Positions 11,819 to 20,189 of a stretch of 64,000 nt of DNA are shown here, one piece after another. The notes below the pieces were generated by a model that was given only the letters and a program-made list of their open reading frames with translations, had not been told where the DNA came from and did no database searches. How positions within the stretch are numbered: position 1 is the first letter of the stretch; every line of letters starts with the position of its first letter. The position numbers were made by a program, and so were the translations under genes. Source of the stretch: Bryopsis sp. KO-2023. Lineage: Eukaryota; Chlorophyta; Ulvophyceae; Bryopsidales; Bryopsidaceae. The stretch is from contig BSYQ01000008.1 in assembly GCA_030272585.1 (NCBI GenBank), forward strand, positions 3,534,001 through 3,598,000, given 5' to 3'.

Positions 11819-12087
11819 TGTTGAATTCACATTCTTACACTGTGTTGTAGACAACACAATGCAACAGGGACAACACAGCGTGAACGTAGTATTACAGAGA
11901 AGCCCTTACTAATTCTTGAGTCCCGGATATATTTACCAACACGGGAGGTACAATCTGTACTGCAACCACCTCACTTCATTCTCGGGTTCACAACAACTGT
12001 AAAATGAACGACCCCTGTTCCAACCAGAGTCCCTTCAAATACCGCAACCTAGAGTGCTAAGTTAGGACTCCTAACTTCACAAACTGC
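11819..12087 (-). repeat. SINE-like repeat, copy C, part 1 (interrupted)
   Basis: This is the reverse complement of the repeat seen at 2939 and 21033. It opens with GTTGAATTCACATTCTTACA near 11820 and ends at the 5' edge of the LTR element. It continues at 20149-20189 on the other side of that element. This copy keeps about 150 bp between the two conserved blocks that copies A and B have largely lost. Confidence 0.6.
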
Positions 12088-12603
12088 TGTAGCGAATCAG
12101 GGTTTCTGCCAGCCCTGCAGTACGTCAGCAGGCTTGCTGACAGTGCTGCAGTACTTTAAGTAGGAGTCTGGTTGCCCTGAGGCAGCGTACAGTCAGTCAG
12201 GGTGTGCTGTCAGTGAAGTAGTACGTGGACTACTGAGCTGTCAGCTAGAATGTTCTAGAAGGTCGCTCAGCACCACAGGAATGGCCGTGGGGCTGAGCTA
12301 GGCTCTGATTGACAGGACTGCAAGATCTGATAGCTTGCAGTACTGATGCAGACTGATGTTACAGCCTATGATCAGTTGGGATCAAGGCTGCTAGGGTATT
12401 CTATAAGTTCTTGGGGTTTGAACGTTCTTGTAACTTAACCTAACCTTGGTTTGGAACTTATCTCGCCCTTGAACCTTGCTAGGTTCAAGTGTCTCTCTCA
12501 TGGCCGTTCAATAGAACAGGCGGTTCAGACTGGCAGACCGACAGGGTCGCAGTCTTGGGTAGACTGAAGCGGAAAAAGCGATCTGCAGGGCAGATTCGTT
12601 ACA
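12088..12603 (+). repeat. 5' LTR
   Basis: This 516-bp direct repeat is paired with 19633-20148. It holds several short CAG/CTG-rich palindromic stretches and the sequence TAACTTAACCTAACC. Confidence 0.92.
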
Positions 12604-12604
12604 G

Positions 12605-12620
12605 TGGTTTCGGAGCAGGC
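12605..12620 (+). other. Primer-binding-like site
   Basis: TGGTTTCGGAGCAGG starts one base after the 5' LTR. It resembles the TGGTATCAGAGC type complementary to initiator-methionine tRNA 3' ends in many LTR elements. The match is partial, so the primer tRNA is an inference. Confidence 0.55.
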
Positions 12621-13740
12621 TTGTGACAAGATCACAAACGAGCCTGGCAAGCTGCAGAGGCAGCACTATGCGTGGTAGACGCGCAGGTAGAAGGCGCAGA
12701 GGCGCAGGACAGCTGACAGACGCACAGCAGAGGTTTGCAAGGCAGACACAAGTGCTGTGAAGGATTGGAGTGGTCTATTGAATTTTTCAATGTGCTCTAT
12801 GGAGAAAAGGCGCAGAATCGGCGTCAGGAGTACAGTTGCTTGCAGTATATGTGTGTGTGAGAACTGCGCAGCAGACATAGCATGCGCAGCATTGTTATGT
12901 GCTGAGCGCAGGACAGTACCTTGTATGGAAGAGCGCAGCACGCACACAGGCGCGCAGCATTGTCAAGCGCAGCACGACTATGTGCAGCGTCGCAGGAAAC
13001 GTTGGGTGGCGCAGCAACTCCAGGATTGCGCCGCAGATGCAGAGCTGTACCGCGGATGTAGAATTGCGCAGCGAATATGGAATTGTACCGCGGGTGCAGG
13101 ATTGCGTCGCAGGCAGAAAGTGCGCAGGTTTTGCTGGAGCGAATGTTGGCACTGCGTAAGTTGATGATGGGACGCGCAGCAGCCGCAGGAAAGCGCTGCA
13201 CATGCGAAATTGCGCAGCGAATGTTGGCACGGCGTAAGTCGATGATGTGACGCGCAGCAGCCACAGGAAAGCGCAGCACATACGAGATTGCACTGCAGAC
13301 GACAGATTTACGTTGCATGCGATGGATTGTAATGTCGATGGGACATATGCACGCAGATGCAGGAATGGCGCAGATGGTGCAAGCATTGCGCAGTGTTTCA
13401 GGGATTGTGCAGCTCTTGATGGAAGTTCGCAGACGATGTTGGGACTGCGTGTCGATGGAAGGAACATCTGATGTAGGGATCGCGCAGCTCTGTGCAAGGT
13501 CGACACAAGGTGCAGGTTCTGGTGACTTGCTCAGAACGTGGCAAGATGTATGCGAGAGTGAGAATTGCGCAGCGCAAATTAAGTTGCTGCGACCAGGAAG
13601 AGTTGCAGTGCACGTGGTGATGTGCATGTCAGAAGCAATGCACGGCATGCATCGCAAGACTGATGCAGACATCGCATAACTGGCTCAGGTTGAGCGCAGG
13701 TTGAGCGCAGGTTGAGCGCAGATGTGAGATGCAAGAGTGT
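12620..13740. repeat. Degenerate GCGCAG-rich repeat tract in the LTR element
   Basis: The motif GCGCAG and close variants recur densely through this stretch. A duplicated block of about 75 bp (GCGAATGTTGGCACTGCGTA type) lies at about 13139-13216 and 13217-13288. Near 13690-13725 the 12-mer GGTTGAGCGCAG occurs three times in a row. Few TA dinucleotides leave long open frames on both strands, but none looks like a protein. Confidence 0.7.
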
Positions 13741-14559
13741 TACACGCTTGCAGTGTTACATTTGATAAGAAGTGATCTGATCATTTCGTGAGTTGATTGA
13801 AGTGACTTTAGAAGTAGTGAGCTGCAGATTGATTTCAGGATCAGGTGATCTATGATCTTCTGATTGCAGCACACATTCTGGAATAGATGTATGATCACTT
13901 TAGAAAGGATTTAAAGAGATGCAGTCAAATTTTCAGGCTGAAGTGAGGGAGATGTTCTGAAAGGCTTTGATTGATCGCAAGTCAGCGGTGGAAATTCTGG
14001 AAAGAGTCTTGGAGACCAGGCAGATTTTTCAGGGAAGATTTGATATTCTTTCAAAAGTCTGGTGTTGATATTTGACAGCTTTATTGGTCAGAAGTTAGGA
14101 TTTTTCTGATCAGGAGTTCCTCCTTGTTTGCTTGGATTGGTGCATTCGTTAGTGGAGATTTATCCTTGGCTCAGTGGGATTGAGCAGTAGTGGTGACTTA
14201 TAATTTCAGAGTGTGGAAGGTTGCAGTGGAAAAATTCTTGGCTTTAGTGGCAGGTCAGAACATGTGTCACATCAGCTTTGATGTGATTGTGCATACATAT
14301 TTTGGATGTTTGTACATCAGGAACACTTGCTACATTTGTGTTGATTGTGGGAACATTTTCAGGTGTTTCAGTGAATGCACAATAGCTTGAGGGAATTTTT
14401 CAGAGTCGTTTCTGAATTTGAAATGAGGAGAACTGAAGGTCAGAACTTATTTTAGAGTTGCTTGCAGAAAGCTAAGGCACGTGTTAGTTCTAATTTATTG
14501 GTCAGTTGAGGTATAGTGTTTGTGTTTCTGTGGAAGGGTTGTCTTGTCTTTTTCTTGAT

Positions 14560-14770
14560 GGACCCTATGGTATATTGCTCTGATTTCTGAATAGACCAGT
14601 GGCAGGTCATTCTCAGAAGAATGTCAATGACATGAAGTTTTCGTTCTATAATAGACTAGTGGCAGATTATTTTCTGTTGTTTGGTGGGACAAATGACAGA
14701 GTATTAGTCTTTTTATAGATCAGTGGCAGATCATTTTCTGTTGTTGGCAGGGCAGATATTAGGTGTGTTG
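14560..14770 (+). repeat. Short diverged tandem-like repeats in the LTR element interior
   Basis: Three similar segments begin TAGACCAGTGGCAGGTCATT (about 14592), TAGACTAGTGGCAGATTATT (about 14652) and TAGATCAGTGGCAGATCATT (about 14717). Two continue with TTTCTGTTG. Their role is unknown. Confidence 0.5.
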
Positions 14771-16089
14771 GCAAGGTATTTTTCTGTGGCAGCCTTGCTT
14801 GGCAGGTCAGGAAAAGATGTAGATTTTTGAAGGGACCAATAGGTCCATGGAACTCTTCTTTATTAGACTGAGTGGTAGCTAGTATTTGAAGAAGGATATG
14901 AACAGCAGTAGCTGACTCTTAGGTGTTGCAGAAATAGAACATCTCATCCTTCTTGGCTATCAGGAAAAATGCAGTCAGAAATATTCCAAATGAGGGCAAT
15001 TGTTTTGTCTAAGGATGACCCTCATTGTGAGCTAAGTAGTAGCCAGTGATTAGAGGACTTCTGAAAAGGAAAAGTTTCCTTAGTTGAATGGAACAGGAGG
15101 CTGAGTTCTGGACTGTCTCTAGAGTATTCAGGATTTTGCGCAGAATTGAAAACACAGATTATCTTTTGAAGAGAAGAAGAAATCTGATGGGGAGGATGCA
15201 GTTATGAGATAACCATATCCTGCCCATTGTTGGACAGAGTGATTCTTGGTTGATGGCAGGGTTTCTTTGATACTAGAGTTTGTTTCAGCAAGATTTCAGT
15301 GGAACAGTTTGAGTTCGGGAATCTTGGTTTTTACAGAAATGGTGATTTCTCTAAAACACTCTTGGTTTCTTATTTTTTATGGTGACTGAGAGATGAGTTT
15401 TTCAGGTTATACCCCATTCTGGAAGTTTGTTCAGTTTATCAGAAATTTCTGGAGAGTAATTGATCACTAGTGGTGCTCTTGAGGCATAGAAAAAGTACAT
15501 CGGTTCATGGGACAAATGACTGAACAAAAGAGGAATTTCTATGGTAGTTTGGTTTGATTTTGTCCTTTCGTTTTTGTTTGGCTGAGAAGTTGCTGATTTC
15601 TGGTGAAGCAATATCAGTAGAGGTTTCTAACCTGTGGTCAGTAGAATGCTACAGTGTGTTTGAGATGTCTATACATTAATAGTCTAAAAAGGAGAAGTGG
15701 CAGACTTTTGTACGGGCTGATTTCTTACTCAGTAGCATTGTGAGAGTGCTGAGGATATAGGTTTTGAGACAGAGGTGGACTCAACATATTTTTTGGCTGA
15801 TTGCATTGCAGTGGATTTAAAAAAAAAAAAAAAAAAAGGATATTGGAAGTATGTGGCAGATTTATATCTTTGCAGCCACATGGTAGTTAGTTGTTTATTG
15901 GGAGTGAAGTGTACATGCCAGGCAGGCCGTGTGCGGCGTGCGGCTGAAATGAGAATACATGCCAGGCAGATTGTGTGAGGCGTGCAATTGATGTTTTGTG
16001 GAAGGAATTGGTCCAAGGGTTGTGAAGTGGAGAAGAGGAAGGCCTGAGGGTGGAGTAGCCACACCTCACAAGGGTAAACAAAACTTGCA

Positions 16090-16570
16090 GTAGATATTTT
16101 CTGCAGATGCAGAGCCATGTGTAGCCACATCTGAGGAGATGGTGCATGAGTGGAGTGCCATGTGAAGCATATACCCATGTAGGACAACTGAGCGGGGAAG
16201 CTAAGATCAGCATCCCTCAAGAAAGTTGCTCAGCCCCAAGTTTTCGCGGGAACGGAAGTCCAGGGAGGACGTAGGAGAGTAAGGAAACCCTGAGGGTGAT
16301 GAGCCAGGGGTTCACACCTGATGGGGAGGCGAAAAAGAAGAAGATGATGGAGAACCTTGCAGATACAGAGCCATGTGTAGCCATATCTGAAGGGGATCCT
16401 GCAGTTTCAGTGTTGAATTTTGCAGGTGGAGAGCCGTGTGTAGCCACATTTGCAGAATGTTTGGTGAAGGATATAGAGACAACGAAGGAGGGCTGTGGGC
16501 TGTGTGAAGCCACAACCACTCTGGTCTCTGAGGCAGGAGGTGATGAGCCAAGTGAAGCCACACCCAGCCT
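16090..16570 (+). repeat. GAGCCATGTGTAGCCAC repeat cluster in the LTR element interior
   Basis: A unit like CAGAGCCATGTGTAGCCACA recurs near 16108, 16365 and 16430, with shorter variants (GTGTGAAGCCACA, AAGTGAAGCCACACC) near 16502 and 16550. The plus-strand frame 16296-16793 (165 codons) runs through it and shows repeated EPCVA/EPSEAT motifs. I recognise no known domain. Confidence 0.5.
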
Positions 16571-19500
16571 GCAGGTGATGTTAGGCAGTGCAGGATTAGG
16601 TGGGGCCCCACCTGAACCTGAGCTGCACAGTATTTCTGAGAGTAAAGGTACTGATGTTGATCTAAGGGCAGACACATCAGGTTTTTCGGTAAGAAAGGAG
16701 CTTGAACAGGGGAAACTAAGTGCAGATTCCCTTAAGAATGTTTGTTCAAGTGTACCCCAGTTTTGGGAGTTTTGGGAGTTGAGAAGAGTCTAGGGAGGGA
16801 CTCTAAGTTGATGCAGACCACATGTTTTGTGGCAGATTGTTTGTTTTTGCAGAATTAGAAGTCAGAAAGTTGGATTTTATTCTCGAACTGCAAACAGTTA
16901 GTTGCAGTTTTGCAGAAAGTCTGACTAGTTTATTGCAAGTCAGTGTACCAACATGACGATACTCAGATTTAGTTGGTATATTTAAAAAAAGAAAAAAAAA
17001 AAAAAACATATGTCGAAAGAATTATGAAGGAGAGTTTGACAAACTCATAAGGCTTCAGAATCTTTTGTCAAAGAGGATCAGAGATAGCATTTTTCAGTGG
17101 CAGAGTTCACTATTGTTGCAGCTGCAAGGGTAGTGACTGAAGTATGGAATGCTGATTCTATTTCTGATTCAGAATATTAGATTCAGTTATCAGATTTTCA
17201 AGGAGACAAAGATTTTACGGAGATTATGGTTTGGATTTTCTGTGGAGATCAGAGGACTCCGTCAGATGAAGAGAAGAAAAGGTTTCGCAGATTTTCAGAC
17301 GACTTTCTTCTATAGTTGATTTTTTGTGGCACTATTATTTGACCTTGATGCATGGATAGCATGATGTCAAAGATCAGGAGCTGAAGGTTACGACATTGCA
17401 TGGTCGGGTTCAGCTTTACATACAGAGAAACACAAGGGATTGTGAACATTTTGCAGGCAGATCTGGAAATGTGTTATGAGCAGTTGGCACATTGCAGGTG
17501 CAGAACCTGTTAGTTGCAGAGGCACTTTGCAGGGCTGCAAAAGTTTCTGTGTTTTCTTTATTCTCTATTTCTTTTCTGGTAATTGAAGCAGAAATAGCCT
17601 TGATCTTTAGTGGCATAGTTGGTGTATATTTGTGTGAACAACATATATCAGAAAGGTTGAAAACTGAACATTTGATTACAATCTGGGGCAGCAGATTATT
17701 CTGACTTTGGTAGAGCAAATTCAGGCCTTCAGTTTTTCAGGCTTGTTTCTTGAAGTAGTTTGTTCAGTTGTTTGGGGTTATTTTGGCTGCTCCGAACAGC
17801 TCAACTTTCTGTAGCTGGTACAGTGATATGGTTTTGCATGATTGCATGGTTGCTTGAGGACAAGCTCCATTTCAGATGGGGAGGGGGCCTCGGTTCAACC
17901 GATGCGTTTTATTTTTGTTTTTCCAACATTGCATTTGTTTCAGTAGGTGTTGCAAAGATACACACATCTTTGTCAAGGTTTCTAAGGAAAGAAAGAGGTT
18001 CTTAGTTGTACTCTTTCAGAGCTGATGGGAATTCATGGATAGTGTTTGCAATATCTTGGAGGTCAGTAAATATGTGTTTTCAGTTCTACTATTCTTGCAG
18101 AGTGGATTAAGGAACTCAGTATAGTTCACTACTTTGGGACGATGCAGAATTAAAACATTTGCAGTCTAGCAAGGGTGTTTCTGGTGGACTGGAATATTCT
18201 GGTACATGGCACATATTTTGCTGTGGATTTAGTTGGTTTGGAATTTACAGAAGTTTGCATGACCATTGATTGAATCAGTTAGATTGGTGCTTACTTGAGG
18301 TTATTGAATTTCAGAGAGTACATTGATATGAATTCTTTCAGCACTCAGTTGTTGGATAAAAAGAAAAAGGGAATAGCACTGAGTGAAGTCTTGTTGGTTG
18401 AAAGAAAGGGTTGATTTCATTAAGGCGAGATAGGCCAAGTGGAATTTCTGGGTTTTCATATATTCTGATCTGTATAGATTCATATATGGGAAAACCGGAG
18501 AAGACATAGAAGAACTCGGGAACAATTAATGCAATCAATCTGTAGGTACTCTGAACATTCATGACTCAGGAGAGAGAAAGCAGCAAGGAGCTTCAACTCT
18601 GAGGAGCTGCTGGAGTGATTGCTGACCTCTTGGTTTTCGAAAGGTTGGAATCTTATCCCTTTGTTTAAAAGGAAAAGGTTGATTGACGGAAGTTCTTTCT
18701 ACCATAAAGAAATTTCCAAGACAGCTTGCATATCGAGAGAGTGATATTTTGCTAAGTTGCAAATTTTGGCAGCACCAGTTTGCAGGGTTGCAGACTGTGG
18801 CAGTAGTTGCGGAGAGAATTTGCAGACTGTGGTAGTGGCAGTTTGCAGGTTTTCAATATGCAAATGTTGGGTTGGAAATTATCGGACAACATGAAGTTTC
18901 AGAAGTTTTGGTAGTTGCAAAATATTTGGTGGCTTTCTTTCATCATTGGCAAATGATTTCTGAATAGCAACATTCAGGTCTTAAAGAAGGCAGAAAGGTG
19001 AATTGCTGAGATCCTAAAAGCTGCAGCAGATTTTTGCTATTTTTCTGTTGGATTCTCTAATAGTCAAGATAAAAAATATATATTTTGAGTTCACAGGTTG
19101 CAAAAAGGAATTGAATTTTGTTAAGTAACACCTTACAATTCCGAAAGAGAAGTTCGTTTGGTTCTCCTATTTGTGCTATTGGAATTTATCTAAGCAGTTT
19201 TCTAGGCAATTCAAAGGTATGCATCAGGATGATGGGAAAGAAGCATATACTTTATTTTGCAATTTTTCAAAAGGATATTTTCAGTTGGTCAGTCCTTCCA
19301 GAAGGTGTTTGGTAGTTGACAAGATGGGATAGCAACTTTTCAAATTAAACTTTGAGGCTTTATATTTGCAAGGGTTGTGACCTTGGGCGAAACACTATTT
19401 CTTAGTTGTGTTTTATATGCCAAGGAAGTGAGAAGCTGCAGAAACATAAGTTCAAGTGTGCAGCAGGGTTCTTTGGTTGTTAGTGTTCTATTAGACCTAC

Positions 19501-19620
19501 AAGGGAGTAGGGTTTTATTTGATGATGAGAGATGGGTTTCAGATCTTTATTGAGCTATGGAGTTTCCCTAAAAGATTGGTTTATTTCAGTCAAAGTGCAG
19601 TAAGGGGCTACTGCAGTTCA

Positions 19621-19632
19621 GATGGGGAGGAA
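19621..19632 (+). other. Polypurine tract
   Basis: GATGGGGAGGAA lies directly against the 3' LTR, where plus-strand synthesis is normally primed in LTR elements. Confidence 0.7.
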
Positions 19633-20148
19633 TGTAGCGAATCAGGGTTTCTGCCAGCCCTGCAGTACGTCAGCAGGCTTGCTGACAGTGCTGCAGTACT
19701 TTAAGTAGGAGTCTGGTTGCCCTGAGGCAGCGTACAGTCAGTCAGGGTGTGCTGTCAGTGAAGTAGTACGTGGACTACTGAGCTGTCAGCTAGAATGTTC
19801 TAGAAGGTCGCTCAGCACCACAGGAATGGCCGTGGGGCTGAGCTAGGCTCTGATTGACAGGACTGCAAGATCTGATAGCTTGCAGTACTGATGCAGACTG
19901 ATGTTACAGCCTATGATCAGTTGGGATCAAGGCTGCTAGGGTATTCTATAAGTTCTTGGGGTTTGAACGTTCTTGTAACTTAACCTAACCTTGGTTTGGA
20001 ACTTATCTCGCCCTTGAACCTTGCTAGGTTCAAGTGTCTCTCTCATGGCCGTTCAATAGAACAGGCGGTTCAGACTGGCAGACCGACAGGGTCGCAGTCT
20101 TGGGTAGACTGAAGCGGAAAAAGCGATCTGCAGGGCAGATTCGTTACA
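19633..20148 (+). repeat. 3' LTR
   Basis: This 516-bp repeat shows no difference from 12088-12603 when read side by side. It is followed at once by the ACTGC target duplication. Confidence 0.92.
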
Positions 20149-20189
20149 ACTGCCAACAACTACCCAACGAAATTACTCCTTTCCACAAT
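20149..20189 (-). repeat. SINE-like repeat, copy C, part 2
   Basis: CCAACAACTACCCAACGAAA and the following TTACTCCTTTCCACAAT are the reverse complement of the start of the repeat at 2939 and 21033. This completes the copy split by the LTR element. Confidence 0.6.

Follow-up and report, generated by a model that had tools for sequence, protein, structure and literature searches.

A recently inserted, non-coding long terminal repeat retrotransposon with a mosaic terminal repeat and chromovirus relatives in the same genome

Introduction

Among the retrotransposons bounded by long terminal repeats (LTRs), the large retrotransposon derivatives (LARDs) were reportedly described in barley by Kalendar et al. 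in 2004, and the barley elements are said to combine long LTRs with a conserved RNA structure in their interior. For soybean, Du et al. reportedly described in 2010 how an autonomous element and its non-autonomous partner exchange parts of their LTRs. LARDs with LTR swapping are therefore a kind of element already known in plants. According to PMC6022998, an element is classified as a LARD when it has no domain and a length of at least 2000 bases. In the case of the Arabidopsis element Onsen, Sanchez et al. 2017 (PMC5668417) report that most LTR recombination products fit a first template switch in the R region.

Here we describe an LTR element which spans positions 12088-20148 of a window of 64,000 nucleotides (the whole stretch of DNA analyzed, bases 3534001-3598000 of contig 8) and we compare it with its relatives in the genome searched (91 Mb, 28 contigs). 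Four families are considered: family A, to which the window element belongs; family B, a Ty3 chromovirus; family C, apparently non-coding; and family D, a second chromovirus. The window element is very probably a young, large and non-autonomous derivative, issued from a recombination between C and the chromovirus B and presumably moved in trans by the proteins of B or D.

Like a LARD, the window element has two LTRs, a primer site, a polypurine tract, a long interior without coding domains and many copies. Unlike the barley LARD, its LTR is only 0.5 kb long and recombinant, it contains a dead 0.5-kb pol fragment, and its host is probably not a grass. As is reported for the soybean case, a non-coding family carries LTR sequence of an autonomous relative; in the present case the exchange involves U3 as well as the 3' end, the break coincides with the place expected for the U3/R border, and the families have a covarying hairpin in common. 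Under the rule given in PMC6022998 the window element is a LARD, with two LTRs, a target duplication, a primer site and a purine tract, no coding domain and a length above 2000 bases. Its LTR recombination is consistent with a first template switch in R, as reported for Onsen, but a non-coding and a coding family are involved here, unlike the recombination within one family described there. It shares U3, the primer site, the 3' block and the purine tract with the Ty3 chromovirus B, most of its interior being different. Unlike B and D, which have gag and pol with a chromodomain integrase, it lacks any complete protein domain. Searches of open-licence papers revealed neither this particular recombinant nor its hairpin. 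The locus offers an unusually clean record, within a single genome, of a non-coding retrotransposon gaining the promoter of an autonomous one, both parents and the product being young.

Results and Discussion

Architecture and age of the window element

The element (all its features lie on the + strand unless otherwise stated) is flanked by a perfect 5-bp target-site duplication, ACTGC, at 12083-12087 and 20149-20153. An earlier note, made from the sequence of the window alone, had described the LTRs as apparently identical. Alignment of the 5' LTR (12088-12603) with the 3' LTR (19633-20148) confirmed this at 516/516 positions, giving a 95% upper limit of about 0.6% for their divergence (rule of three, 516 sites). 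The window element is therefore a recently inserted LTR retrotransposon, its low age following from the identity of the LTR pair, and the recent movement claimed in the note holds: mismatches that would make the copy old are absent from the 516 sites. The other structural marks named there were also recovered by sequence reading and by the tRNA match, namely the target duplication, the TG..CA ends (TGTAGCGAATC..GATTCGTTACA), the primer-binding site TGGTTTCGGAGC (12605-12616) and the polypurine tract GGGGAGGAA (19624-19632), which directly adjoins the 3' LTR and is the same in B and C. The 12 nt of the primer site are complementary throughout to the last bases, CCA added, of a host tRNA called Met(CAT) by ARAGORN, and the body of this tRNA presumably resembles the plant initiator tRNA, which would suggest a host of the green lineage. 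Within the window, no tRNA gene was found and the Rfam search gave no match at gathering score. The leader (12604-13800) is rich in GCGCAG and contains short degenerate tandem repeats. It holds 24 GCGCAG words for a mean of 3.4 and a maximum of 8 in 200 shuffles, and a single one is present in 13801-19632. The word bias which the earlier note attributed to the interior is thus real but confined to its first 1.2 kb.

Family A in the genome

The whole-genome DNA searches scored at most the best 40 candidates, so that all copy numbers are lower bounds. At least 11 places, window included, matched a whole 613-base query covering LTR and leader (best 40 of 247 candidates), and six other copies are intact, with a conserved interior (93.6-95.6% identity to the window copy). 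In the 11 copies, the LTR pairs showed no difference in seven cases, one in two (one of these pairs being compared over 407 bp, its 3' LTR being cut) and two in two. Perfect 5-bp target duplications surround all ten insertions in which both outer ends are intact, the window element among them. Between copies, the 5' LTRs differ at 2-18 of 516 positions. These young LTR pairs, together with the divergence between copies, indicate that several A lineages, and not one, moved recently.

Three of the eleven copies are split, their halves lying 14-28 kb apart with other elements between them, and copy L021 has a large internal deletion. Sharing among copies is patchy. Over 535 bp from position 12778 the window copy is identical to L012 and L013, pairs which differ by about 3% elsewhere. 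Over 14380-15170, a stretch peculiar to the window copy, the six sisters agree within about 1-2%, whereas the window copy is 77-83% identical to them and 78-79% identical to C; a donor of this stretch was sought and not found.

Two A loci were noted in particular. One of the three split copies, at G000:C1:319250-334700 (L019 and L020), has its 5' half on the - strand and its 3' half on the + strand, and the two halves are separated by family-D sequence; it appears inverted inside, and its target duplication TCAAC and its LTRs (2 differences) still pair. At G000:C9:67100-67500 (L056) lies a place that matches the window copy at 99-100% over its 3' interior (C9:65283-67157), and the 3' LTR ends after about 89 bp, followed by CTGCACAG-type repeats.

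Mosaic structure and direction of exchange

The LTR of A is made of two parts. Up to LTR position 347, the diagnostic sites are B-like in 118 cases and C-like in 3, and after this position 4 are B-like and 47 C-like. Along five LTR segments the identity to B drops from 95-97% to 48-66% and the match with C improves from 48-79% to 92-94%. The U3 part (12088-12434) matches B copy L023 at 333/347 positions (96%) and the R-U5 part (12435-12603) matches C at 146/158 (92%). The same U3(B)-R-U5(C) pattern is present in the 5' LTR of all 11 A copies and in the 3' LTR of the window element. The switch, at 12434, lies about 30 bp past TATAAG (12402-12407), read as a TATA-like box; when the LTRs of B and C are aligned, both have the same letters at this place. 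The transcription start, and with it the start of R, is expected near the switch, about 30 bp after TATAAG, and the switch consequently sits where reverse transcription would place a U3/R break.

A second sharp junction, from C to B, is found at 19358/19360 in comparison with L022. From there as far as the purine tract the sequence resembles B, so that the last 270 bp or so of the interior (19359-19632) would come from family B; this 3' block is about 92% identical to the nearest B copy, L022, and against L023 the B-likeness begins about 50 bp later. Upstream of it, the interior compares with C at 81-93% over 12604-14500 (few pieces at 75%), 78-79% over 14500-15600, 90-94% over 17600-18587 and 78-82% over 18580-19358, and C is the source type for most of it as well as for R-U5. 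Judged by its sequence, A is a recombinant of at least two parents, C and B.

The sharing could also have arisen in the opposite direction, with A as the donor and B as the recipient of the U3 and the 3' end, and the fact that D, the sister of B by its pol, does not have the U3 of B is compatible with this. However, in a U3 tree of 11 A and 7 B sequences rooted by C (no support values were computed) the A sequences nest inside B, and C agrees with B at all three fixed A/B differences. In the 3' block, the A copies show 20-24 differences to L022 (20 for the window copy) and 38-45 to L023 and L027, for 38 between L022 and L023. Transfer from A to B is thus quite improbable. Since A is nearer to L022 than L022 is to L023, A most likely took its 3' block from an L022-like B element.

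Autonomous relatives

The places that match LTR positions 1-347 alone form a separate family, B. The genome search with the LTR for relatives carrying pol, which the earlier note had advised, was therefore productive, and the partner is no longer unseen as it was in that note. The B leader is whole at 33 places, at 97-100% (40 candidates in all, each of them scored). The copies L022, L023 and L027, in which the two LTRs are present, have 473-bp LTRs with 0, 0 and 1 differences, respectively, and the same primer site as the window element. In these copies pol is open over 1395-1396 residues. A gag frame of 406 residues is open in L022 and L023; it was looked for in L027 and not seen, and in a fourth copy, L024, the gag frame is present and pol is broken. 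Both frames are thus open in 2 of the 4 B copies examined. In L022 and L023, the gag open reading frame (ORF) contains Retrotrans_gag and a zinc knuckle (Pfam) and the pol ORF encodes, in this order, protease, reverse transcriptase, RNase H, integrase and chromodomain, both without stops. Family D (L025) also has open gag and pol, with gag, protease, reverse transcriptase, RNase H, integrase and chromodomain, and its pol is 84% identical to that of B over 1209 residues of protein. These relatives, the identical LTRs and the near-absence of coding sequence fit the idea, already put forward in the note, of a large non-autonomous derivative that would be driven in trans.

Downstream of pol, both chromoviruses have a third ORF, with 284 residues in B and 338 in D (L023:6555-7406; L022:1170-2021, - strand; L025:1768-2781, - strand), which gave no Pfam match. 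An antisense ORF of 392-393 residues crosses the gag-pol junction (L023:1835-3010, - strand) and has a similar length in three B copies (also L024 and L027).

Family C

Family C is larger than A, with at least 29 further places carrying R-U5 and leader at 87-90% (best 40 of 157 candidates). Its sequence was taken from one element, examined at both ends and in the middle (three pieces, L053-L055), the other statements on C resting on search tables. The LTRs of this element, 640 bp each, show no difference between them, and GGCAG is its target duplication. Its LTR recurs unchanged over the first 342 bp at no fewer than 19 places among the best 40 full-length ones, the query's own pair included, indicating that C is also young. 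The middle piece contains no ORF above 117 residues; it holds scraps of D-like pol and about 453 bp that match, at 83%, the 3' region of D elements. On the basis of this middle piece and of its likeness to A, C is apparently non-coding.

Among the search places, three C-type LTRs lie 9551 bp apart at G000:C5:4146838, 4156389 and 4165940, with two interiors between them, in the order LTR-interior-LTR-interior-LTR.

Coding content of the interior

The coding capacity of the element was assessed on the ORFs located around it; 20 of these, counted from stop to stop, reach 80 residues or more, and ten were submitted to Pfam. None gave a match above cut-off, the three weak matches having E values of 0.08 to 0.58. 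In tblastn searches, for which two autonomous relatives supplied gag, pol and the third ORF as queries, a single clear remnant was detected at about 16325-16842: it corresponds to residues 77-232, near the start of the B pol ORF, and 80% of its amino acids are identical. At the DNA level this fragment is 87-91% identical to at least 29 B-like places (best 40 of 204 candidates) and is nearer to L022 (90%) than to L023 (88%). It contains no Pfam domain, and its differences to B are spread about evenly over the codon positions (14/15/19 for 468 sites), which indicates that it is not maintained as a protein. No complete protein domain was therefore found in the window element by Pfam or tblastn. 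The earlier statement that the interior has no recognisable gag or pol stands as regards the profile search, which revealed no clear retroelement domain in the ten ORFs, but has to be amended for this dead 0.5-kb pol fragment.

The interior might instead encode an unknown protein, for example that of the 286-residue antisense ORF at 12827-13684, and antisense ORFs of more than 280 residues do recur in several copies. This is very improbable, since the ORF is interrupted by frame-shifting indels in four of the six other intact copies and gave no Pfam match above cut-off; coding constraint on it was rejected, the substitutions being distributed 74/53/55 over the codon positions. Over the whole interior, the indels of the six copies relative to the window copy are mostly not multiples of three (multiples of three in 5/40, 8/39, 4/37, 3/32, 5/31 and 7/48 cases).

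The pol remnant, and the scraps of D-like pol and 3' region kept in the middle of C, could suggest a decayed autonomous element whose LTRs were kept while its genes were eroded. In the case of the window copy, decay is refuted by the identical LTRs; moreover, this copy and its six intact sisters share one non-coding interior, and R-U5 and leader are common to at least 29 C places. We hold this explanation to be the most improbable of those considered here, and decay may rather account for the distant origin of the C lineage.

A hairpin shared by coding and non-coding families

Directly 3' of the primer site, at 12621-12637, the element carries a hairpin with a 6-bp stem and a CAAGA loop, which is invariant among the families. 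Its sequence is TTGTGA-CAAGA-TCACAA in A and C, GCGCAG-CAAGA-CTGTGC, with the same spacing, in B, GCATAG-CAAGA-CTGTGC in the B relative L057 and TTGTGG-CAAGA-TCACAA in D. Another B-related stretch, L058, is devoid of the primer site and was left out of the test. In the four distinct stems, 24/24 cells are paired and 6/6 pairs are changed on both sides; the test comprises these four stems only and the hairpin was chosen after the sequences had been seen. None of 500 shuffles reached the observed pairing, the number of doubly changed cells or the covariation score. Slid versions of the hairpin have 17-46% of their cells paired, and at eight other distinct places where the 12 nt of the primer site recur, matched by sequence alone, CAAGA is absent and 0-3 of 6 positions are paired. 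In the window, arms at the hairpin spacing pair 6/6 at 0.5% of positions, and CAAGA combined with 6/6 pairing is present at 12605 and at a second position, 696, close to the number expected by chance.

By its covariation, the hairpin is conserved as a structure across coding and non-coding families. Because of its place and of its sharing among families, it is a candidate packaging or dimerisation signal. More tentatively, and with more doubt than confidence, we suggest that B and D use it to recognise, or to dimerise with, the RNAs of the protein-less A and C and so carry them along, and that the shared hairpin allows a co-packaging which keeps making chimeras like A. If this is true, the parasite can change its promoter without losing access to the machinery. 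A candidate of 17 nt makes recognition by the partner's Gag a testable question.

A fold scan of the element (200-nt windows, 30 shuffles each) revealed a modest stability at R-U5 and leader (z of -2.4 and -2.6); elsewhere z values were scattered on both strands, down to -4.8 in sense and -5.8 in antisense. The B leader showed no such stability in the scan.

Proposed origin and spread

During reverse transcription, the 3' end of the RNA serves as the template of U3 and the 5' end as that of R-U5. If the template was a chimeric RNA, C-type at its head and B-type at its tail, or a C RNA packaged together with a B RNA and undergoing strand transfer in R, both LTRs of the product would become U3(B)-R-U5(C). 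Family A would then have spread using the B-type promoter, with Gag, reverse transcriptase and integrase supplied in trans by B or its sister D, priming by the host tRNA-Met, and recognition of the RNA probably through the shared CAAGA hairpin near the primer site.

An origin at the DNA level was also considered, in which a crossover in the 3' interior joined a chromosomal C to a chromosomal B, and one ordinary cycle of reverse transcription later gave both LTRs their U3(B) and R-U5(C) parts. Exchange of DNA is hinted at by the tandem C-type LTRs on C5 and by the A copy with halves of opposite orientation on C1. The patchy sharing among A copies (such as the 535-bp run that the window copy shares with L012 and L013) would suit repeated template switching better, and we regard the DNA-level origin as possible but rather unlikely.

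Several observations weigh against the proposed recombination by reverse transcription and mobilisation by B or D. A crossover in DNA yields the same final sequence. The trans-mobilisation of A is deduced from sequence, not from a transcript, a particle or a new insertion. The 3' block of the window copy is near to L022 only, with 42 differences from L023 and from L027. The match to C is poor in two parts, with pieces at 70-74% over 15600-16079 and patches at 71-81% over about 16270-17330, which makes the parentage of both doubtful. The partner of C itself may be B, D or an unseen family, the C U3 being only about 69% like that of B. The leaders of B and of A/C differ except for about 45 bp at the LTR end, the primer site and the hairpin. 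As for the hairpin test, two of its five measures were reached by shuffles, the doubly changed pairs in 39/500 and the pair types in 207/500. Finally, the earlier note had advised a search for conserved structure or packaging-type folds; the post-primer hairpin covaries, but consensus folding of the rest of R-U5 and leader (9 sequences) gave 1 double change in 90 predicted pairs.

Other observations

Near contig ends, 23 occurrences of the tRNA-Met gene that matches the primer site were found, 12 on C5, 8 on C9 and 3 on C10 (G000:C5:6912072-7047807, C9:5578813-5671152 and C10:5077324-5128482). The spacing is mostly 10.8-11.5 kb on C5 and C9 and 25.5 kb on C10, and the gene thus seems to sit in a long tandem unit, which may be ribosomal DNA. 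In the window, an ORF on the - strand at 44997-46154 matches the exocyst component Sec6 and is an ordinary host gene.

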